Positions 3,705 through 31,655 of a stretch of 39,624 bases of DNA are shown here, piece by piece. Within the stretch, counting starts at the first letter, position 1; each line of letters starts with the position of its first letter. The stretch spans positions 1 to 39,624 of the forward strand of contig DUVQ01000086.1 of NCBI GenBank assembly GCA_012840965.1, read 5' to 3'. The DNA comes from Oligoflexales bacterium. GTDB taxonomy: Bacteria > Myxococcota_A > UBA9042 > DTJE01. The position numbers and the translations under genes are program-made. A model generated the notes under the pieces. The model saw nothing but the letters and a program-made list of their open reading frames with translations. It did no database searches and was not told the DNA's origin.

Positions 3705-4181
3705 CTAATCGACATATTCGACGCGATTGCCGCCAGCAGAAATGGCCCTCGCAACAGCGTACTTGGCTGTTGCAACAAGTTGAGAAATCTGAGTGTCATT
3801 TTGGGGCATCCCTCGGGCAACTCCAATGCTACAAGTCACTTTGCAGGGCCTACCCTCCCACTCGAATTTGTGACGGGCTATAACCCGTTTCAGCTTTTCA
3901 GCCATTGCAATGGAGCCAAAAACGTTATGATCAACCGAAACCAGAATAAAATCCTTGCCTTCCCAGGATCCAAAGCAATCAATCTTTCGAGTGTTGGAAC
4001 GAAGTACATTTGCTACTTCACCAAGCACATAATCCCCAGCGTCTTTTCCGAGCCTTTCGTTAATTAACCCTAACCCATCGATATCAACCATCAAAATCGA
4101 TAGATGAGCTTCATAACGCCGCGCCCTATCTGCTTCAAAGGCTAGGTCATCGTAACTTAATTTTTGGAGTTCAATATCCAT
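3705..4181 (-). CDS. Lone degenerate GGDEF-domain protein (probable c-di-GMP receptor)
   Basis: A GGDEF domain with almost nothing else (158 residues). The fold is recognisable from RARRYEAHLSILMVDID, the N in GLGLINERLG, DAGDYVLGEVA and the ending AKYAVARAISAGGNRVEYVD. The active-site motif is EGKDF instead of GG(D/E)EF, and the usual F-K after DID are L and G, so cyclase activity is unlikely. The inhibitory-site motif RxxD (RKID, residues 65-68) is intact exactly five residues upstream, which suggests c-di-GMP binding (inference). ATG 4181 is chosen; an ATG at 4199 (seven residues upstream in total length) is equally possible. A TTG at 4253 would add a short hydrophobic stretch. Confidence 0.8.
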   Translation of the reverse strand: MDIELQKLSYDDLAFEADRARRYEAHLSILMVDIDGLGLINERLGKDAGDYVLGEVANVLRSNTRKIDCFGSWEGKDFILVSVDHNVFGSIAMAEKLKRVIARHKFEWEGRPCKVTCSIGVARGMPQNDTQISQLVATAKYAVARAISAGGNRVEYVD

Positions 4182-4320
4182 GGCTCCACCCACTACCATC
4201 ACCCTGCTAATGCTACCCCAAAGCACACCAAGTGCAAACAATAGCCGCCCCAAAAACAGGTTGAGCGATACATATTTTCAGGGAATCTGTCTAAGCAGGC
4301 AGTAAGCAGCCTTCGATTCA

Positions 4321-5328
4321 CTAGTAACCGGCTAGCATCTCACAAAAAGCGCCGACCTCAACCTCGCGGTTTGCATAGGTAACTAGGCCAAGGGATGTTT
4401 TTTCGTAAGTTTCAATAACGATGATTTCACCCCTGGTTTCCATCGGGAAATCTTTACGTTTTTTGGGCTTGGGATTGTATTCGTCTACCCCGTCACCCTG
4501 CTCCCGAACTAAAAAGCGATTGCCAGCCATTACACCGTCGTCAGACCCCTTGTCTATGATGGCGTAATGGTACTCGCCTAGATAGTGGATGTCGTCAAAG
4601 GTTGTGACGACCGTCGCCTCAAGGTCCGAAGCATTTCTAACTGGCGGGACCGAGCGCTGGACAGGGGCAAACGGAGCCACCCGATCACCGCGGAAGATTT
4701 CCTCAAAGCTTATTAATAACACTGCCTTGTTTAGCTCAGTCTCGGTAGACGTCACCTTTGTCACGCCCAGATACCGAATTTTGTATCCCAATTTCTTCTT
4801 TGTGACTGGATGCTTGATTTTCTTGCCTTCAACCCGAAAGACCAAAAACAGGTCTCCCTCTCGAATACGACGGACCGTGTCAAAGCGGATGTAGGCCTCA
4901 TCAGTTTCAGAAAGCATTTTCTTTTCTTCACGGGAGTGTTGAATGCGACCAGCTCCCTTCAACGATTCCTCACTGATGAACCCAACTCTCCTGCCAAGCG
5001 CACGCTCCATCTGGGGACCGGCCGAGTAACGAGACTCAGTCACGGCATACCCATCCCTAACTGGAGTCTGAGGTTTGGGAGGAATCAGGAAAATATGGTC
5101 GCCAGGGAAAATCCAGTTTGGGTTTGTGATGTGGGGATTAAAGGACCACAAAACAGGCCAATACCATGGATCTTGGAAAAACCTGTCCGCAATGTCCCAT
5201 AAGGTGTCACCACCATCGGCCACGTAAACGTTGACCTCGTCTAGGCCACCGCTTACCTGAATCTCCTGCGCACTGGCTTGAAAAGCTACGAATAGTGATA
5301 AAACCAGCGCCAAAATCCAACGGTTCAT
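4321..5328 (-). CDS. Exported LysM-domain protein
   Basis: Probably a periplasmic peptidoglycan-binding protein. The product is 335 residues with a clear Sec signal peptide (MNRWILALVLSLFVAFQASA). It is followed by one LysM module, GDTLWDIADRFFQDPWYWPV ... NPNWIFPGDHIFLIPP. The remaining ~240 residues are a beta-rich region without a motif I recognise. ATG 5328 is supported by AGGGAGG six bases upstream and by the signal peptide; a longer frame to 5388 overlaps the upstream lipoprotein gene. LysM proteins of this type are common in Myxococcota-like genomes near Tol-Pal genes. No catalytic domain was seen, so a structural or anchoring role is likely. Confidence 0.85.
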   Translation of the reverse strand: MNRWILALVLSLFVAFQASAQEIQVSGGLDEVNVYVADGGDTLWDIADRFFQDPWYWPVLWSFNPHITNPNWIFPGDHIFLIPPKPQTPVRDGYAVTESRYSAGPQMERALGRRVGFISEESLKGAGRIQHSREEKKMLSETDEAYIRFDTVRRIREGDLFLVFRVEGKKIKHPVTKKKLGYKIRYLGVTKVTSTETELNKAVLLISFEEIFRGDRVAPFAPVQRSVPPVRNASDLEATVVTTFDDIHYLGEYHYAIIDKGSDDGVMAGNRFLVREQGDGVDEYNPKPKKRKDFPMETRGEIIVIETYEKTSLGLVTYANREVEVGAFCEMLAGY

Positions 5329-5374
5329 ATAAACCTCCCTGCCTGCACTCAAGGCAAGTGAACAAACTATGATA

Positions 5375-6277
5375 TCACGGCATTTCACCTAAAAGCTTCA
5401 TAGCAACTGCCGCCGCGTTTGTTTCAGGATAAGTCAGCATCGTAGCGTCGTACATCCGTTTGGCTTCAGCAGTCCTGCCAAGTCTCTGCTCACAAAGGCC
5501 TACTTTAACCATGGCATCTGGAACTTTGTTTCCGTTTGGATGTTCATTTATCACCCGCAAAAACTCGACGCGAGCGCGCTCGTATTCGCGGCGGTCGTAA
5601 AAGCATTCGCCTATCCAGTATTGGGCATTATCGGCGTAAGGGTGACGCGGATAAGCAAGAACAAAGGCTTCAAAAGCAGCCTGAGCCTGGTATGTGCTGC
5701 CCTGTTTGTACAGGTCATAAGCAGCTCGATATTTATTTAAGATGGTTGATTCATCATCCGAATCCTCCAGCTTCTTGGATGCAGTTGGCATCACCCGCTG
5801 TACAGGTAAATCCTTTTTGCGCTCGGACTTGCGGGCTGGCCCAACTACCCGACCCTGGTCATCAATTGATTGGTAAACATCCTCTGTTATGGCTTCACTG
5901 GAGTAATGTTGGACCATGGCTCGCGCAGGCGCTGCTGGGGGTGGAGTCGGGGGTTGCGTTGGTATCGTCACCGTATAAGGGACCGCTGGAGCAGCCGCCG
6001 CTTGCGTTGGACTTACCTTCACCACAGGCAGAGCGTCCGGGGCGTTAAACCTGGCGGCATCCCTCATACCAACCAAACGCAACGTGTCTAACTCGTCTTG
6101 TAAAAGTAACGCCCTGTTTTCTAGGTCATCCATCCTAGTTCGCATTGCCGAGGAGCCGCGCACAGATTCATCAAGACGGGTCTTTAGTTGTGCTACTTCC
6201 TTTTCCAGATTCGCCAAACCGGACGAACAACCAGTGGCTAAAAGCAGAATCGCCAATGCAACGATGGTATTTTGCAT
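5375..6277 (-). CDS. CpoB/YbgF-like TPR lipoprotein (first of two)
   Basis: Lipoprotein of 300 residues resembling CpoB/YbgF, which coordinates peptidoglycan synthesis with Tol-Pal in cell division. It has a lipobox at LLLATGCSSG, a coiled coil (~residues 22-70, LEKEVAQLKTRLDESV), a long Pro/Ala-rich linker, and C-terminal TPR units (YDLYKQGSTYQAQAAFEAFV, NAQYWIGECFYDRREYERAR). The start at 6277 (MQNTIVAL) follows GAGG and places the signal peptide correctly; a GTG frame seven codons longer is less likely. It is divergent from the pal-like gene and upstream of the LysM gene. The family is well supported; the exact partner is inferred. Confidence 0.85.
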   Translation of the reverse strand: MQNTIVALAILLLATGCSSGLANLEKEVAQLKTRLDESVRGSSAMRTRMDDLENRALLLQDELDTLRLVGMRDAARFNAPDALPVVKVSPTQAAAAPAVPYTVTIPTQPPTPPPAAPARAMVQHYSSEAITEDVYQSIDDQGRVVGPARKSERKKDLPVQRVMPTASKKLEDSDDESTILNKYRAAYDLYKQGSTYQAQAAFEAFVLAYPRHPYADNAQYWIGECFYDRREYERARVEFLRVINEHPNGNKVPDAMVKVGLCEQRLGRTAEAKRMYDATMLTYPETNAAAVAMKLLGEMP

Positions 6278-23162: not shown

Positions 23163-24566
23163 TCAGGCCTGGCGGATCACTCTGATTGCCATTTTAATCG
23201 TGTGGTTAAGTGGCACCTTCACTTTGTATAGCCTGGCCATTTTCAGCGAATCCAGCACCTGGAATCCTGCCCATAGAACAGAGGTCGGGATAGAAAACGC
23301 GACCTTTTGCAGCTTGACGTTTTTGTATAGAAACGGATGCTCGACAAATACCGGAAATAAAAACGAAAACTTCCGTATCCAGACCCGCTCTTTTTTGTCC
23401 ATTTTAAGGGCGGATGGCTTGTGGCTATTAACTGGTAAATCGCCAACATCCCCTGATGATAAGTACCCGGACTCTATGGCCGCATTAGTCAGATCCAACC
23501 CTGGAAACGGAATAAAAATGTATGCACAAGAGTAATCAGGGGCAACCTTTTGAGAAAGCTCCAACGTTTCAAGCATCTCTGATCGACTCTCCCCAGGGAT
23601 ACCAATCAAATGCCCCACCCGTTGCTTTATACCGGCAGCTGACAGCAGTTGCCCTGCCTCAATGATTTGCTCTTTAGACATCTTTCGTCTAAGCACTTCA
23701 TTGCGAATGCGATCATTACCAGACTCTATGCTCCAATGGACTCCAATACAGCCACTAGAGGCCAGCATCTCTACCGTCTCGCGATCCACCATGTCAGGCC
23801 TGATGTTACAGGTATATGGAATCTTTGCCTCTCGTGGAAATCGCTGCGCGAATTCTGCAAACCACTTTTTATTGATCGTGAACACATCGTCTTGGAACAC
23901 CGCCAAATTAAAAGGATAAAGCCTCTTTGTCGAATTCACTTCATCCAGAAGCCTATCTACGCTTTTTTTACGAATCGTAGGACCGCATGACTTAGTCATT
24001 TGGTTGTATGCGTGGTTAAAGCAGTAAGTACACGAAAACGGGCATCCCAACCCTGACATGAACTGCTTTGAAGGAGCGTTTCTTAAAACCTTATCCCGCT
24101 TATAAACCACTGAACGATCAGGCGGCGGCGTCAGTTCCAAATCTATGAACGGCTCAAGCCTTAGAGGCCGTGCATGTCCCCTCAAAACCATGTTACCGGC
24201 ATTTTCAGGTCCATTTCTGACATAGTTTCGCAAGGCGCTTTCACCCTCACCAATCACATACGCATCAATCGAACCATCAGTAATCGGCGAAAAGGTAGGC
24301 CCAGCCCCACCAATTATTGAAAACGTAGGGATCGCCAGCTTAAGCTGTGCATCAAACGCCTGATACCCCCCGATCTGCGACGACAGCGCCGAGTACATCA
24401 CAAAATCCGGCCGCATCTCAACAACACGCCTAACCGCCCTGGCATGGCTGCTAGTAGATACATAGTCCAGTTCAACGTTTTCAGCGCCAAGCACCCCAGA
24501 CAAAGCGTAAATGCCATGTTTATCGAAGATACCAGGAAATAGATCTATGAAAACGCCCTTTAACAC
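23163..24566 (-). CDS. B12-binding-domain radical SAM protein
   Basis: 467-residue protein with an N-terminal cobalamin-binding-like Rossmann region (GVFIDLFPGIFDKHGIYALS, later YSALSSQIGGYQAF and IIGGAGPTFSP). The radical SAM cluster motif is CPFSCTYC (C-X3-C-X2-C), followed by typical elements (FQDDVFTINKKW, GVHWSIESGNDRIRNEVLRR, HLIGIPGES). A DxHxxG motif for base-off B12 is not clear. The start is GTG 24566, five bases after GGGGAGG. An ATG frame to 24734 would translate the hexamer array as a PVPVPA run and is rejected. The substrate is unknown; many members act on lipids or secondary metabolites. Confidence 0.85.
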   Translation of the reverse strand: MLKGVFIDLFPGIFDKHGIYALSGVLGAENVELDYVSTSSHARAVRRVVEMRPDFVMYSALSSQIGGYQAFDAQLKLAIPTFSIIGGAGPTFSPITDGSIDAYVIGEGESALRNYVRNGPENAGNMVLRGHARPLRLEPFIDLELTPPPDRSVVYKRDKVLRNAPSKQFMSGLGCPFSCTYCFNHAYNQMTKSCGPTIRKKSVDRLLDEVNSTKRLYPFNLAVFQDDVFTINKKWFAEFAQRFPREAKIPYTCNIRPDMVDRETVEMLASSGCIGVHWSIESGNDRIRNEVLRRKMSKEQIIEAGQLLSAAGIKQRVGHLIGIPGESRSEMLETLELSQKVAPDYSCAYIFIPFPGLDLTNAAIESGYLSSGDVGDLPVNSHKPSALKMDKKERVWIRKFSFLFPVFVEHPFLYKNVKLQKVAFSIPTSVLWAGFQVLDSLKMARLYKVKVPLNHTIKMAIRVIRQA

Positions 24567-24617
24567 ACAAGCCTCCCCAGGCCAAGTCAGTATCGAAAAC
24601 CCACAAGCACGTGTCAA

Positions 24618-24682
24618 GGGACAGGAGACAGGGACGGGGACAGGGGCAGGGACAGGGACGGGGGCAGGAGACAGGGGCAGGA
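24618..24682. repeat. GGGACA-type hexamer array (GGGACA on plus strand)
   Basis: GGGACA/GGGGCA/GGGACG units with GGAGACA interruptions, between the radical SAM gene and the ffh promoter. Its strand orientation is opposite to that of the arrays at 20263 and 21054. Confidence 0.85.
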
Positions 24683-24762
24683 ACGAAAGTGAAAGCAGGC
24701 TAAGGCAACCCAAATTAACCGCCAAATTGCGCACCAGAAACGTCGTTTCAATCCAACCCGCC

Positions 24763-24824: not shown

Positions 24825-26357
24825 ATGTTCGAAGTTTTAACAAAGGGATTTCGCAGCGCCCGCGCCCGCTTGTCTGGCAAATCAGTACTAACCGAATCAG
24901 TCATTGATGAGGCTTTACGCGACATTAGAGTCTCGTTATTAGAGGCTGACGTAGCCCTCAATGTTGTAAATGCCTTCATGACCCGGGTCAAAGAAAAGGC
25001 CATCGGCGAAGTCATCCAGGTCAAAGCAAAAAAGGGTGACCGCAAGATAGAAATCACCCCCGCCGAGCACTTCGTCAAGCTTTGTAACGACGAACTTATC
25101 GAACTAATGGGCGCAGGAGAACGCGGCCTTGAATTTGAACCTGGCGGCCGCCCTACCGCCGTTATGATGGTCGGTCTCCACGGAACCGGAAAAACCACCA
25201 CGTCAGCCAAGCTCGCAAACCTGCTTAAGTCACAAAAGCACAAGGTCATGCTTGTCGCAGCCGACGTCTATCGACCAGCCGCTATCGACCAGCTGAAAAT
25301 CCTTGGACAAAGAATCGGAGTCCCAGTTTTTAGCCAGCCAGGCGTCATGCCCCCTGAGCTGTGTGCAAACGCCATGGCCCAGGCAGTCGCGGAAAAGCGC
25401 GACGTCGTCATCTTCGACACCGCTGGTCGTCTGGCTATCGACGAAACCCTGATGGGCGAGCTGTCCGAGATTAAGGAACGCACAAATCCTAAAAACATCT
25501 TCTTGGTCGTTGACGCCATGATCGGTCAGGATGCCGTTCGAATGGCGTCAGAATTCGACCGCCTGTTGAACCTAACCGGCGTAGTCATGACCAAGATGGA
25601 CGGTGACGCCAGAGGCGGTGCCGCCCTATCAGTCAAAGCTGTCACCGGCAAACCCATTACCTATGTTGGTACTGGCGAAGAACTCGATAAAATCGAGGCC
25701 TTCAGACCAGAAGGAATAGCCACCAGGATCTTGGGATTTGGTGACGTAGTCGGCTTGGTCAAGGACTTTGAAAAGGTAATTGATGAGGAACAGGCCGAGG
25801 CTGACGCCATCAAAATGCTAAAAGGCGAATTCAACCTCTACCAGTTCCTGGACCAGATTCGCGCTATCCAAAAAATGGGGTCTCTGCGTGACACCATGGA
25901 AAAACTGCCCTTCTTCCATGACATGGTTCCAGAAGGAGCAGCCGTAGATGAAAAAGTGCTAGGACGCATTGAGGCAATGATTAACTCGATGACTCCTGAT
26001 GAACGAAAAACACCAAACATCATCGATGATCGCAGAGCTCGCCGTATTGCCAAGGGCTCAGGCCGCAAGCCAAATGAAGTAAAAGACCTCGTCCAGCGCT
26101 TTGAAGCAATGCGTGAGGTAATGAAACGGGTGGGCAAACAGCCTTCTTTGCTTGGACGACTGCCTGGGTTTAAGGAAGCCTTGGATTTGGCTAAGGCCCG
26201 GGGCGAAGACGTCTCTGACCTGATGCCATCAGAACGTGAACAGCGCGGTTCTTGGGGCGGATATGGTGTAAGGAAACTTAACCCAGCCGAGAAAGAACGG
26301 CGACGTAAAAAAGAAAAAGCCGCCAGAAAACAGCGACAAAAGGCCAGGCGAAGATGA
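24825..26357 (+). CDS. ffh: Signal recognition particle protein Ffh (SRP54)
   Basis: SRP GTPase that binds signal peptides and 4.5S RNA and hands ribosomes to FtsY. The 510-residue protein has the N domain (~1-90), the G domain with P-loop GLHGTGKTTTSAKLA, DVYRPAAIDQL, DTAGRLAIDE and TKMDGDARGG. The M domain includes RRARRIAKGSGRKPNEV, the RNA-binding region. It ends in a strongly basic tail (RRKKEKAARKQRQKARRR). The length is slightly above the usual ~450-480, mainly from the C-terminal tail. No ffs RNA was recognised nearby. The next gene overlaps by four bases (ATGA). Confidence 0.97.
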   Translation: MFEVLTKGFRSARARLSGKSVLTESVIDEALRDIRVSLLEADVALNVVNAFMTRVKEKAIGEVIQVKAKKGDRKIEITPAEHFVKLCNDELIELMGAGERGLEFEPGGRPTAVMMVGLHGTGKTTTSAKLANLLKSQKHKVMLVAADVYRPAAIDQLKILGQRIGVPVFSQPGVMPPELCANAMAQAVAEKRDVVIFDTAGRLAIDETLMGELSEIKERTNPKNIFLVVDAMIGQDAVRMASEFDRLLNLTGVVMTKMDGDARGGAALSVKAVTGKPITYVGTGEELDKIEAFRPEGIATRILGFGDVVGLVKDFEKVIDEEQAEADAIKMLKGEFNLYQFLDQIRAIQKMGSLRDTMEKLPFFHDMVPEGAAVDEKVLGRIEAMINSMTPDERKTPNIIDDRRARRIAKGSGRKPNEVKDLVQRFEAMREVMKRVGKQPSLLGRLPGFKEALDLAKARGEDVSDLMPSEREQRGSWGGYGVRKLNPAEKERRRKKEKAARKQRQKARRR

Positions 26358-26917: not shown

Positions 26918-27793
26918 GTGAGTTTTCAAGGAATCTACACTGCACTGATTACACCGTTTAGAGATAATCAAGTTGATGTCGATGCATTGGAGATACTTGT
27001 CATAAACCAAGTAAATGCTGGAATTCACGGGCTTGTCGCATGTGGAACCACAGCTGAAACTCCAACTTTGACTGACGATGAATTTGAATTGGTGGCCTCC
27101 ACCGTCATCAAGACAGCTGACAAAAAGGTCCCAGTGCTTGTTGGGACTGGACAAAACGATACTGACAAGACGATTGCCAGGACCAAGTTAGCCTCGCAAT
27201 TAGGGGCAGACGGCGCGTTAGTGGTCACCCCTTACTATAACAAGCCCCAGCAAGAAGGGTTATTCTTACATTTCAAAGAGATAGCCGAGGCATGTCAGCT
27301 ACCAATGATGCTGTACAACGTCCCTGGTCGAACAGGGGTCTGTATGACGGCACAAACAACATGCAGACTGGCAAGGGTGCCTAGGATAGTGGCTGTAAAA
27401 GAGGCGTCAGGGTCATTATCTGCTATAAGGGACATCGTTTCAGGCACTTTTAACGAGTTTGATGTGTTATCAGGTGACGACGGCATGGCGCTGGGGTCTT
27501 GGGCTTTGGGCTCATGCGGCGTGGTCTCGGTAGCCAGTAACGTCGCCTGTGGACCCATGGTTCAAATGTGGGAGGCTTGGAAGGCTGGCAAGGTTAAAGA
27601 AGCCGCGGAAATTGACCGACGGTTGGGGCCACTTTATACGGCCCTTTTTGTGGAAACTAGCCCTGCGCCAGTGAAGTTTGCAGCTGAATTGCTGGGAATT
27701 TGTTCAAGGGAGGTCCGAAAGCCCTTAGTTAGTGCATCATCTCAGACCCAGGAGTTGATTCGGGCGGCTTTGGTCCATGCTAAGCTACTTTGA
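26918..27793 (+). CDS. dapA: 4-hydroxy-tetrahydrodipicolinate synthase
   Basis: Condenses pyruvate with aspartate semialdehyde in lysine and diaminopimelate biosynthesis. The 291-residue TIM-barrel protein shows GTTAETPTLTDDE (family GTTGE-like loop), the catalytic Tyr region YYNKPQQEG, YNVPGRTG and the Schiff-base lysine in VAVKEASG. The start is GTG 26918 with GGAGG seven bases upstream; no better ATG exists. It is the last gene of the ffh operon. It converges on gatD, and the gap shows no clear hairpin terminator. Confidence 0.95.
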   Translation: MSFQGIYTALITPFRDNQVDVDALEILVINQVNAGIHGLVACGTTAETPTLTDDEFELVASTVIKTADKKVPVLVGTGQNDTDKTIARTKLASQLGADGALVVTPYYNKPQQEGLFLHFKEIAEACQLPMMLYNVPGRTGVCMTAQTTCRLARVPRIVAVKEASGSLSAIRDIVSGTFNEFDVLSGDDGMALGSWALGSCGVVSVASNVACGPMVQMWEAWKAGKVKEAAEIDRRLGPLYTALFVETSPAPVKFAAELLGICSREVRKPLVSASSQTQELIRAALVHAKLL

Positions 27794-27808: not shown

Positions 27809-29197
27809 CTACTTTTTGTGCCCCTTAACAAAGCGGTCAACTTCAGGCAGTCCACCTTGTAAAACCAAGTAGCCATCTGGAGGTTCACGCTTGGTAATTT
27901 CCCCGGCGATGGGTGTCAGCATGATGTTGCGAACCACGTCTTGGTCATGGCTGTGGGCCAATGCCCATCCAAGCTTTATGAACGCGACCTCAGGCAGCAT
28001 GTTTCCTGCGGGTACCACCCCTATTTCCATCAGATCGCGCCCAGTATCATAAACAAACATCTGGGTATATCCCCACAAGGTCTGGACCGTCATGTAAATG
28101 TGGACACCAGCAGCCACAGCGCGACGCAAGGCTGGAAACACCTGTCTGTTTGTGTGTCCAAGCCCTGTTCCAGCAATAACTATCCCCTTGTAACCATTGT
28201 CGACCAGGCTATCAATCACATCAGGCTTCATCCCTGGGTATTGGTAAATGATGGACACCCGATCATCAAACACCGCGTCAAGCTTAACTTTTTTGTCAGC
28301 ACGCCTGACCTTGTAGTCCTTTCTTAGGGGCTTTATTCCCCTTTCATCAACCAAGGCCAGCGGAATGTCCCCAATAGTTCTAAAAGTCGAGCGATATGAC
28401 GAGTGCATCTTTCTGACCCTGGTGCCACGGTGCAAAAGCCCATACTGGTCAGATGTGGGACCAAACATGCAGACCATGACCTCAGCAATATCAGAAGTAG
28501 CCGCCGCCATAGTGCCATGAATCAGATTTAGCGCCGCATCAGAAGAAGGCCTGTCACTTGAACGCTGACTTCCAACCATCACGATGGGAATTGGCGAGTC
28601 TTGCACCATAAACGACAGGGCAGTCGCAGTATGTGACATCGTGTCTGTCCCATGCCCAATTATGATGCCGTCCACACCGTTTTCGATCTCTTTTGCCACC
28701 GCCTTTGCCAGCCCAATGTGTTCCTGCGGTCCCATGTTTTCAGAAAACACTGCGTAAAGTTCATGAGCCTCAAGATTACAGATCTCGGCCAATTCTGGAA
28801 CCGAGGCATAAAGCTCACCGGGTGAAAACGCTGGAATTACAGCTCCAGTCCGATAGTCAAGGCGAGAAGCAATCGTGCCACCTGTTCCAAGCAGCTTTAC
28901 CGTCGGTTTTTTGGCGTCAAAGGGAAATTCCACGGGGGGGATGTGATAACTGATTTCGTGGTAGCCCAAAAACTCGATGTTTTTAATGCCACGCACATCC
29001 AGGCCAATGTTGTAACCAGTTTCAAGCTTTAGCACCAAGTGCCTGTCATCAGCAGTCTGGCTTCTTGGCAAGACTAGGCCACAAAACTCGCCTTTATCAG
29101 TAGTTACCCTTACTTCGGACCAAACCTTGATCCCCATGCGCTGCAAAAGATCGAGGCTTTGACCACGATAACCCTTGTACAGATCATCACTACTCAT
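27809..29197 (-). CDS. gatD: Glu-tRNA(Gln) amidotransferase subunit D (archaeal type)
   Basis: 462-residue glutaminase subunit of the GatDE amidotransferase, which releases ammonia for the conversion of Glu-tRNA(Gln) to Gln-tRNA(Gln). The N-terminal beta domain (~1-85) precedes an asparaginase-type domain. This carries GTGGTIASRLDYRTGAV (~104-120) with the first catalytic Thr, GHGTDTMSHTATALSFM (second Thr and Asp), MVGSQRSSDRPSSDAALN and a lysine after them. The added N-terminal domain and the SRLDYRTGAV signature separate GatD from ordinary L-asparaginases. ATG 29197 overlaps the gatE stop by eight bases and has AAGGGAGG upstream. In established knowledge GatDE is characteristic of Archaea. 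Confidence 0.92.
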   Translation of the reverse strand: MSSDDLYKGYRGQSLDLLQRMGIKVWSEVRVTTDKGEFCGLVLPRSQTADDRHLVLKLETGYNIGLDVRGIKNIEFLGYHEISYHIPPVEFPFDAKKPTVKLLGTGGTIASRLDYRTGAVIPAFSPGELYASVPELAEICNLEAHELYAVFSENMGPQEHIGLAKAVAKEIENGVDGIIIGHGTDTMSHTATALSFMVQDSPIPIVMVGSQRSSDRPSSDAALNLIHGTMAAATSDIAEVMVCMFGPTSDQYGLLHRGTRVRKMHSSYRSTFRTIGDIPLALVDERGIKPLRKDYKVRRADKKVKLDAVFDDRVSIIYQYPGMKPDVIDSLVDNGYKGIVIAGTGLGHTNRQVFPALRRAVAAGVHIYMTVQTLWGYTQMFVYDTGRDLMEIGVVPAGNMLPEVAFIKLGWALAHSHDQDVVRNIMLTPIAGEITKREPPDGYLVLQGGLPEVDRFVKGHKK

Positions 29198-30890
29198 TGC
29201 CCCTCCCTTTTCGCTTCCAGTGCACTTCATGACCAACAGCGAACGCCAGTGCGGCGGCGGCCTCCTTCTGGGCCCAATCCTTTTCTTTGGCAAAAAGCTC
29301 AATAAAAATGTCAGCTTCAGGTACTAGCACTTGTTGTCGTTTTAAATAAGGCATCCAATCAAGCAACAGGTACGCCAAAATAGTTGGTTTTAACGCCACT
29401 TTTTCGACCAGGTGATCAAAAAGCTCCCAAACCCCCTGGGTAAACAGCCTTTCCAGCTGGCTTTTGGATAATCCAAGCTCCCTGTATTCAGCTTCCTTGT
29501 CCCAAAGCGAAGCAGGCGCCCTCGCTTTTGCCAAATCAAAGGCCTCACCAGTCAAAACAATTGGCGGTAGGTCAGTATCAGGATACATGCGGTCGCGTCC
29601 TGGTAAAACGCGCTCAAATCGCGTCGCACCACCAGGAATTGGCCGTCTAGTCTCCTTGGGCACCCCCTTAAGCATCTCAACCATTCTGGCCTTTATTTCC
29701 AAATCAGCACTGACAACATCTGCTTCAGGTCCCAAAACGATTACTACTGCATCGCCCGCCTTGCCACCAGCCATGGTCCTGATTTCATCAAACATCGGAC
29801 CAAGGTCAAAATACTCGGGATTATCAGAGCAAACCAAGTTGGGTAGAGTGTCCAGACATGCCACCACCCGTATCCGATCTGAAAGCTCGTGCGCAAAGAC
29901 ACGACCAGGACCTGTTGGGGTGGCAAGAATTCCTTGGCAGTTTTTTAGCAATATCGCTTGGGCAACGCTCTTTGGCCCCCACACAAAGCCAAAGCACGCC
30001 TGTTGCTTTACCAACTCTGTAACGTCGCCAGACCAACCAAAACTGCTGTCATCAATGCCTCTGGAAATGGCAGTATCTTTCAGCTCAATCAGGGCTTTTT
30101 GGCGCAAAGCCTCGTAATGAACAAGCTTTGGGACGTCTCTTAAACTGCCAACCCCCTTGATTTCAATCCTGGTCCCGCCATCAATCGAGACGTTTACATC
30201 CTGTCTTGCACGACCAAGACCAGTCCTACACATCTTTGAAAGATGGCAAAGTCGCCTAATGGCTTGCCCAACCTCAGCTGCCTCCTGGGGGGTTTCCATC
30301 AAAGGGGCTGTCACTATTTCAACCTGTGGAATTGACAGGCGATCAGTCATGTAAGTGCGCCTGTGGCCCCTATCCGAAACTTCCCTGGCGGAATCTTCTT
30401 CAAGGCCAAGGTGCAAAATGTCGATTTTGCGCCCGTTGACCATGATGTGGCCACAGATCCCAAGCAGCGTTGTCCGCTGAAACCCAGTGGGAATTGAGCC
30501 ATCCAAAAGCTGCTTTCTGGCAATATGCAGTTCATCAACCAGATTCAGATTAAGCATCGTCCCAATGACCAAGGCCTTTTCTAAAGCCTCGCGGTTCATC
30601 TCAAACGGGGGGGCATCGTCCATCTCGTAAGTGCAAACCGTGTCACGATTTAGGCAATAGACAATCTCTTTCTTGGTTTTAAACTCCATCAATGCCGCTG
30701 GGTCATACAGACCAAGCTCTGAAAGCGTGGGACGCATGTGGCGCAAAATCTTCGAGTGAAACTTTTTCGAGTACGGCAAGACGGGACATTTGCAAAAAAG
30801 CTTATGGCTGGTGTCCAACTGGCGATGAACCTCAAGCCCAACCTTGAGCCCAAGCCCAGCATAGAACTCTTTATCCCAAAACCGCTGCAT
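29190..30890 (-). CDS. gatE: Glu-tRNA(Gln) amidotransferase subunit E (archaeal type)
   Basis: 566-residue tRNA-binding kinase/amidase subunit, GatB-related. It opens with KVGLEVHRQLDTSHKLFCKC (GatE signature). It shows the catalytic-cradle segments QVEIVTAPL and RTGLGRARQDVNVSIDGGTR, then VKIKGVG-type IEIKGVGSLRDV. The AspRS-like (GAD) insert of GatE is represented by VIVLGPEADVV...VPKETRRPIPGG, followed by RMYPDTDLPPI and the helical domain. The C-terminal tail after the helical domain seems shorter than in archaeal GatE. The start at 30890 has GGGAG seven bases upstream; the longer frame to 31103 overlaps coaE and is rejected. gatD is translationally coupled. Confidence 0.92.
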   Translation of the reverse strand: MQRFWDKEFYAGLGLKVGLEVHRQLDTSHKLFCKCPVLPYSKKFHSKILRHMRPTLSELGLYDPAALMEFKTKKEIVYCLNRDTVCTYEMDDAPPFEMNREALEKALVIGTMLNLNLVDELHIARKQLLDGSIPTGFQRTTLLGICGHIMVNGRKIDILHLGLEEDSAREVSDRGHRRTYMTDRLSIPQVEIVTAPLMETPQEAAEVGQAIRRLCHLSKMCRTGLGRARQDVNVSIDGGTRIEIKGVGSLRDVPKLVHYEALRQKALIELKDTAISRGIDDSSFGWSGDVTELVKQQACFGFVWGPKSVAQAILLKNCQGILATPTGPGRVFAHELSDRIRVVACLDTLPNLVCSDNPEYFDLGPMFDEIRTMAGGKAGDAVVIVLGPEADVVSADLEIKARMVEMLKGVPKETRRPIPGGATRFERVLPGRDRMYPDTDLPPIVLTGEAFDLAKARAPASLWDKEAEYRELGLSKSQLERLFTQGVWELFDHLVEKVALKPTILAYLLLDWMPYLKRQQVLVPEADIFIELFAKEKDWAQKEAAAALAFAVGHEVHWKRKGRGNE

Positions 30891-31037: not shown

Positions 31038-31655
31038 ATGACATGGGGCCTGACAGGTGGAATTGGAGCTGGCAAGTCCGAAGTAGCTAAAATCTTGCGT
31101 CAACTTGGAGTCCCAGTCCTAGACGCAGATCAGATCTCTCGAATGCAGATGCAGTCCGGCCACGCCGTTTATGACTCTGTAGTGGCCACCTTTGGTCGGC
31201 AGATACTTAATGACGACAAAACTATCAACCGTGCGACGTTGGCCTCCTTGGTTTTTAATAATCCGGCGCTTAGGGCCAAATTGAACCAACTTACACACGG
31301 TGCGGTCATAAACGAGATCAACGGACGAATCGCGCTTCTAAAACAGGCTAAACATCCATTGATAATCGTAGAAGCTGCCCTGATTTTTGAAATTGGGCTT
31401 ACCACTATCCTGCACGAAGCTTTAGCAGGGGTGCTGGTAGTTATAGCGCCAAAAGAGCTTAGAGTTCAACGGGTTTTAGCCAGAGACCAAGCAGACCCAT
31501 CCGGCATCAAAGCAAGAATGAACGCACAAATCAGCGATGAAGAGCGTCTAGCCAAGGCAACAATTGTCATTGAAAACGCAGGAACGCTGGAAGAGCTGCG
31601 CAACACAACCGTTGGGTTGCTTACAACACAACTCGCCCAATCTACGAATAAATGA
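31038..31655 (+). CDS. coaE: Dephospho-CoA kinase
   Basis: Phosphorylates dephospho-CoA in the last step of CoA synthesis. The 205-residue length is normal. Motifs: P-loop GLTGGIGAGKSEVA, DADQISR, the lid region, LIIVEAALIFEIG (family VPLLFE-like site) and RVLARDQ. The ATG has GAGG about ten bases upstream. It is divergent from gatE with a 147-base spacer in which I see no convincing promoter for either gene. Confidence 0.95.
   Translation: MTWGLTGGIGAGKSEVAKILRQLGVPVLDADQISRMQMQSGHAVYDSVVATFGRQILNDDKTINRATLASLVFNNPALRAKLNQLTHGAVINEINGRIALLKQAKHPLIIVEAALIFEIGLTTILHEALAGVLVVIAPKELRVQRVLARDQADPSGIKARMNAQISDEERLAKATIVIENAGTLEELRNTTVGLLTTQLAQSTNK

Follow-up and report, generated by a model that had tools for sequence, protein, structure and literature searches.

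The window, a 39,624-nucleotide stretch of a bacterial genome, carries adjacent genes for the two subunits of the GatDE amidotransferase, and the question it raises is what this enzyme does in a bacterium. A 2022 open-access review places GatDE only in archaea, within a discussion of LUCA and tRNA(Gln) co-evolution (PMC9499178). The first-pass annotation likewise treated the enzyme as specific to Archaea, implied transfer from an archaeon or an unusual lineage, and asked whether GatDE replaces or accompanies GatCAB. The host genome is a draft MAG (218 contigs, 3.09 Mb, 95.7% complete), and its closest titled relatives are 'Myxococcota', 'Myxococcales' or 'Deltaproteobacteria' MAGs. Its Myxococcota family, labelled f1 here, comprises 13 genomes, 12 of them with GatE. 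The features of the window are as follows.

949-1875: pyridine-nucleotide-disulphide oxidoreductase (trxB-like)
24825..26357 (+): ffh (SRP54), a syntenic neighbour 74-89% identical in sister genomes (context only)
26918..27793 (+): dapA, a convergent neighbour of gatED (context only)
27809..29197 (-): gatD, 462 aa, ATG start, TAG stop; glutaminase/asparaginase-like subunit with a GatD_N domain
29190..29197 (-): overlap of the gatE stop and gatD start, 8 bases, ATGAGTAG
29190..30890 (-): gatE, 566 aa, ATG start, TAG stop; ATP/Mg amidotransferase subunit with an intact active site, C-terminal YqeY-type tail body missing
30810..30839 (-): GLEVHRQLDT motif of GatE, its E and H corresponding to E34 and H36 of the yeast GatB ATP/Mg site
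31038..31655 (+): coaE, a divergent neighbour upstream of gatE, which adjoins gatE in genome G001 (locus L186) too (context only)

The first-pass assignment of gatE and gatD to positions 27809-30890 was confirmed by the GatD and GatE profiles and by archaeal GatDE as the closest solved structures. In profile searches, GatD scored 504.7 bits with NF003217 (cut-off 310), 502.3 bits with TIGR02153 gatD_arch (cut-off 324) and 54.8 bits with Pfam GatD_N (PF18195, cut-off 25.7). Its best PDB matches were the GatD of P. abyssi (1zq1, E 5.6e-120) and M. thermautotrophicus (2d6f, E 2.6e-116), and its best L-asparaginase match had an E-value of 5.6e-40. GatE scored 373.2 bits with TIGR00134 gatE_arch (cut-off 319.6) and 441.5 bits with NF003107, slightly under the cut-off of 456, a shortfall explained by a profile match that ends at position 517 of 630. 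GatB models gave at most 134 bits on it, far under their cut-offs, and its best PDB matches were 2d6f_C and 1zq1_C. Matching by chance is not an issue at such scores, and the genes are almost certainly true GatD and GatE. The signature motifs quoted for both proteins are present, as is the reported eight-base overlap, through which the translation of the two genes is probably coupled. The GAD-type insert is present too: the GatE profile and the fold alignment span an inserted AspRS-like (GAD) domain, with weak AspRS fold matches, but Pfam GAD gave no match above threshold in this GatE.

The ATP/Mg ligands listed for yeast GatB are E34, H36, E156, E186, T189, N230 and S232 (PMC4027206). Their GatE equivalents are kept in the window, in 12/12 f1 members and in 91/91 other bacterial GatE. 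The equivalents of Mth GatD T101, T177, D178 and K254 are all kept in the window GatD and, one unreadable residue excepted, throughout the GatD compared. In addition, of the 149 columns near-invariant in tailed bacterial GatE, f1 GatE keeps 135. What all 12 f1 members with GatE have lost is the C-terminal YqeY-type tail, a loss overlooked in the first-pass annotation. Past a fixed reference alignment column, 16-57 residues follow in f1 (26 in the window), whereas complete bacterial GatE has 73-118 and archaeal GatE 84-85; a full-length relative (L050) has a GatB_Yqey match in the tail region. In the AlphaFold model of the window GatE (39-row alignment, mean pLDDT 89), the last helix occupies residues 541-551 of 566, and the best structure matches are 2d6f and 1zq1. 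In both GatDE and GatCAB, it is the tail domain that recognises the small D-loop of tRNA(Gln) (PMC4810234), and removal of YqeY from the yeast GatB left no measurable transamidation activity (PMC4027206). The tail-less f1 GatDE departs from known GatDE in a domain that carries tRNA(Gln) recognition.

A scan with the window GatE yielded 260 stretches of genome contigs coding for a relative, of which the best 80 bear KSB1, Krumholzibacteria, Aegiribacteria/Fermentibacteria, Calditrichota, Latescibacterota, Neomarinimicrobiota, Elusimicrobia, Aminicenantes/Acidobacteria, Bacteroidota, Ignavibacteria, Chlorobi, Kapabacteria, Zixibacteria, Planctomycetota and other titles. Since gatE-gatD operons stand under at least a dozen bacterial phylum names, the presumed restriction of GatDE to Archaea does not hold. 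In nearly every locus of sufficient length gatD comes after gatE, and three loci (L051, L064 and L113) lie on single-contig chromosomes of other lineages. Within Myxococcota the operon is distributed patchily: 30 out of 379 sampled genomes have it, including one that falls under the family cut-off.

In a careful GatE tree (46 rows, GatB outgroup), GatE separated from GatB at 100/100, as it did with a support of 100 in a larger quick tree. The three euryarchaeal GatE formed one clade (100/99), a sample with one partial sequence that is too small to place the origin of the family; a Natrinema plasmid gene, read in two frames, was taken in part as archaeal GatE. The branch between bacterial and archaeal GatE was modestly supported in the careful tree (74/74), and the bacterial clade had a support of 97 in the quick one. 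The f1 sequences formed a clade (100/100) on a long stem of 0.67-0.89 (0.89 in the careful tree), within which the window pairs with its genus mate.

The first-pass annotation described ffh, dapA, coaE and pgi as ordinary bacterial neighbours, which Pfam confirmed; its trxB corresponds to the oxidoreductase at 949-1875, graded as trxB-like only. Several f1 sister genomes likewise have the ffh-HEAT-dapA block beside gatED, and one has coaE there. The contig is therefore no chimera, and neither of the refutations foreseen in the first-pass annotation (a grouping with ordinary bacterial L-asparaginase/GatB, or a chimeric contig) applies. The archaeal names of the GatD and GatE families and the review statement that GatDE occurs only in archaea (PMC9499178) might suggest that the pair came recently from an archaeon, or that the assembly is chimeric. 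However, sister genomes share the operon and its flanks, GatDE occurs on the three single-contig chromosomes, the GC and GC3 of gatED are like those of the neighbouring genes, and archaeal GatE is a separate clade. Moreover, the window GatD shares 67-70% identity with other bacterial GatD and 46-47% with archaeal GatD. We therefore rejected this explanation as extremely improbable, and the transfer implied in the first-pass annotation is not borne out. The f1 clade and the conserved synteny indicate that gatED is a bacterial gene pair, vertically inherited in its Myxococcota family.

Bacterial GatD is unusually conserved, far more than GatE. Between tailed bacterial genomes, pairs of GatD are on average 78% identical and pairs of GatE 57%, and two archaeal sequences are 56% (GatD) and 52% (GatE) identical to each other.

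The window genome encodes GlnRS, AsnRS, GluRS and two full-length AsnB-like (Asn_synthase) proteins. In targeted searches of the genome for GatA, GatB and GlnRS, along the lines proposed in the first-pass annotation, GlnRS was found, and no GatA or GatB scored above cut-off; the genome is a 95.7% complete draft, so that absence is not fully proven, but the pattern repeats in relatives. Given this gene set, GatDE in the window neither accompanies GatCAB nor replaces GlnRS, and both roles put forward in the first-pass annotation were rejected. A route to Gln-tRNA(Gln) in a GlnRS-less cell is likewise not what the host presents, as it has GlnRS; this concerns the physiological role and not homology. 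The tRNA(Gln) genes (CTG and TTG) of the window genome have U1-A72, as does tRNA(Asn). The same set, with GatDE, GlnRS and AsnRS present and GatA and GatB not found, occurs on a single-contig 4.1-Mb chromosome (G097), which shows that this combination is no MAG artefact.

Across the 64 GatDE bacteria, counted by hand from tables, GlnRS was found in 49, of which 14 had GatB and 35 did not; among the 15 without GlnRS, 13 had GatB and 2 did not. Genome G006, with the gene split over two contig ends, was scored as GlnRS-positive, and G013, which carries a pseudo-GatE, was left out. The association between GlnRS and GatB is significant by Fisher's test when relatedness and MAG gaps are ignored (p 1.5e-4, n=64). 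Because 13/15 GlnRS-less genomes have GatB, GatDE alone is apparently not sufficient for bacterial Gln-tRNA and does not appear to carry its synthesis.

The genome left out of this count, G013, belongs to the same taxonomic order as the window genome and has an overlapping gatE-gatD pair (locus L176). The GatE of this pair is tail-less, with E34K, H36R, E186V, N230G and S232G at the equivalent ATP/Mg positions. It keeps 71/149 near-invariant columns, and its predicted structure is still GatE-like. The T101/T177/D178/K254 equivalents of the adjacent GatD are kept, and GatA and GatB are present. The retention of GatD beside a GatE with a dead ATP/Mg site suggests, in this single genome, that GatD with a GatE-shaped partner can be useful without amidation by GatE.

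Based on the intact active sites and the solved homologues, we suggest the following mechanism. GatD and GatE would form a heterodimer, in which GatD would free ammonia from Gln or Asn and ammonia would be channelled to GatE. GatE would activate a carboxylate with ATP/Mg and then amidate it. In f1, where the D-loop-docking tail is lost and the catalytic pocket retained, misacylated tRNA (Glu-tRNA(Gln), possibly Asp-tRNA(Asn)) may enter the active site via its acceptor end, without D-loop selection. Since GlnRS is present, GatDE is not needed as the Gln-tRNA maker of the host, and its status in f1 is very likely accessory. That this accessory, derived amidotransferase repairs misacylated tRNA with relaxed tRNA selection is the reading we tentatively prefer, at somewhat less than an even chance. 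Several points weigh against it. The yeast result on the removal of YqeY (PMC4027206) raises the possibility that GatE without its tail has no activity on tRNA, the pair with the dead-site GatE points to an amidation-free role, and none of the genes adjoining gatED accounts for a substrate. In addition, a gene missing from a draft MAG is not fully proven absent, even though relatives repeat the pattern.

The same observations could mean that the tail-less GatDE has left tRNA altogether and been repurposed as an amidotransferase or amidase that depends on Gln/Asn and takes a different carboxylate substrate, GatD being the part under selection. The loss of the tRNA-reading tail in all f1 members with GatE, the inactive yeast GatB (PMC4027206), the intact GatD beside a tail-less, dead-site GatE in a genome that keeps GatA and GatB, and the higher mean identity of GatD than of GatE among bacteria are consistent with it. 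Yet f1 GatE keeps all tested catalytic residues and most near-invariant positions, as if the kind of substrate were the same, and no substrate gene is linked to gatED; we regard this role as possible but rather unlikely. Equally doubtful is the wider proposal of a widespread, unrecognised bacterial GatDE branch with a role other than Gln-tRNA, which in one Myxococcota order would have shed tRNA recognition (the tail being lost and, in one genome, the ATP/Mg site of GatE destroyed as well) and turned into an amidotransferase or amidase with a new substrate. The amidation of Asp-tRNA(Asn) made by a non-discriminating AspRS, in place of the GatCAB kept by related Myxococcota, would agree with the U1-A72 pair of tRNA(Asn), the missing GatA and GatB, and the AspRS RDHGG motif found in 13/13 f1 genomes and most related GatCAB users. 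The His of this motif is a non-discriminating signature in P. aeruginosa AspRS. However, relatives of genus g23 without a GatE or GatB match show HHGG, so the His is not tied to an amidotransferase, and many GatDE bacteria of other phyla have Leu or Met at this position. The motif was accordingly rejected as evidence that Asp-tRNA(Asn) is formed. The archaeal GatDE enzymes that have been characterised act specifically on Glu-tRNA(Gln), and the host has both AsnRS and AsnB, which makes this role quite improbable. Least probable among the tRNA-based roles is an archaeal-style arrangement, in which Gln-tRNA(Gln) is made mainly through GatDE and GlnRS is secondary. The tested catalytic residues are all intact and the genes belong to the archaeal GatD and GatE families, but a full-length GlnRS is present in f1, the D-loop-reading tail is gone, tRNA(Gln) has U1-A72 whereas archaeal GatDE reads A1-U72 and the D-loop, and GlnRS-less bacteria nearly always have GatB too. 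We consider such a route very unlikely.

The AspRS and GluRS signatures did not discriminate between these readings. The R358-type Arg of GluRS (T. thermophilus numbering) was rejected as proof of discrimination, because G033, in which GlnRS was not found, carries it as well.

The window GatDE shares with archaeal GatDE (1zq1, P. abyssi; 2d6f, M. thermautotrophicus) both subunits, the domain order, GatD_N, the catalytic T/T/D/K of GatD, and, in GatE, a cradle that holds the ATP/Mg residues, an inserted AspRS-like domain and a helical region. It differs in the missing YqeY tail body, in a bacterial host with GlnRS, AsnRS, AsnB and U1-A72 tRNA(Gln), and in sequence, GatE being 32-35% identical to archaeal GatE. 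Full-length bacterial GatDE (KSB1, Aminicenantes, Latescibacterota, Calditrichota, Ignavibacteria, other Myxococcota etc.) has the same operon, all catalytic residues, closely similar GatD and usually GlnRS with AsnRS, but keeps its own tail, whereas f1 is tail-less with a long stem. GatCAB has the amidotransferase chemistry and the GatB_N fold in common with the window pair; in the window, GatB models stay far under their cut-offs, GatA was not found in the genome, and ammonia comes from an asparaginase-type GatD. Type I L-asparaginase shares the catalytic domain of GatD (TIGR00519, 372.6 bits, cut-off 260.5), but the window GatD has GatD_N, much higher scores with the GatD models and an overlap with gatE.

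No papers describing bacterial GatDE were found in the open-access literature; public annotation pipelines may already name such genes, and priority is not claimed. The occurrence of GatDE operons across many bacterial phyla, for the most part in genomes that also have GlnRS and AsnRS, undercuts the archaea-only premise (PMC9499178). It raises a testable question, namely what task GatDE has where it is not needed for Gln-tRNA. As natural experiments, the tail-less f1 proteins and the dead-site GatE set tRNA recognition, amidation and GatD activity apart from one another.

Two candidates for making good the lost tail were rejected. A stand-alone YqeY protein occurs in 11/13 f1 genomes, but none was found in the window genome or in G004, so it is not a general answer. 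The C-terminal tRNA_bind domain of GlnRS is missing in G007 and G004, where GatE is tail-less too, and there is consequently no strict link between this domain and tail loss. With its extra C-terminal RNA-binding domain, the host GlnRS resembles the GlnRS-YqeY fusion of the Deinococcus type (PRK14703), which its synthetase part matches, but the domain added is tRNA_bind (PF01588, Trbp111/MetRS-beta type) and not YqeY.

Across bacterial phyla, the mean identity of GatD was 78%, compared with 57% for the adjoining GatE (GatD of the bacterial loci L050-L123). Such conservation is striking for an asparaginase-type protein. An overlapping gatE-gatD pair was also found in G013, an order-mate of the window's genome:

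L176:5275-8329 (G013, contig C248), gatE-gatD pair, overlapping

Most of the ATP/Mg ligands of this GatE are gone, as is its C-terminal YqeY-type tail, while the catalytic residues of the GatD beside it are retained. Both GatA and GatB are encoded in G013 as well.

Most of the GatDE bacteria lacking GlnRS (G056, G062, G064, G065, G078, G090 and others) have GatB, and they often carry at least two GluRS-type genes. No GatB or GatE matches were found in the Myxococcota relatives of genus g23 (G029, G039, G042, G044).

In the window's Myxococcota family, GlnRS has tRNA_bind (PF01588, Trbp111/MetRS-beta type) as its C-terminal domain, whereas in the relative G018 YqeY is fused to GlnRS. The tRNA_bind domain is missing from GlnRS of G007 and G004. 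The window's genome (G000) also contains two full-length asnB-like Asn_synthase genes and two more matches, and a radical SAM gene lies a few genes away from gatED:

L170:1941-4289 (G000, contig C111), GlnRS with tRNA_bind; likewise L171-L173 and L202-L206
C2:15474-16613, C56:4628-5770 and C87 (G000), Asn_synthase (asnB-like) matches
window 23163-24734, minus strand, radical SAM protein with B12-binding domain

The search for further archaeal GatE returned a 987-kb haloarchaeal plasmid record with an unannotated gatE:

L218 (plasmid of Natrinema thermotolerans, CP031304.1), gatE at about 3980-5853

This gene spans two reading frames, which suggests a broken copy or a sequencing error.
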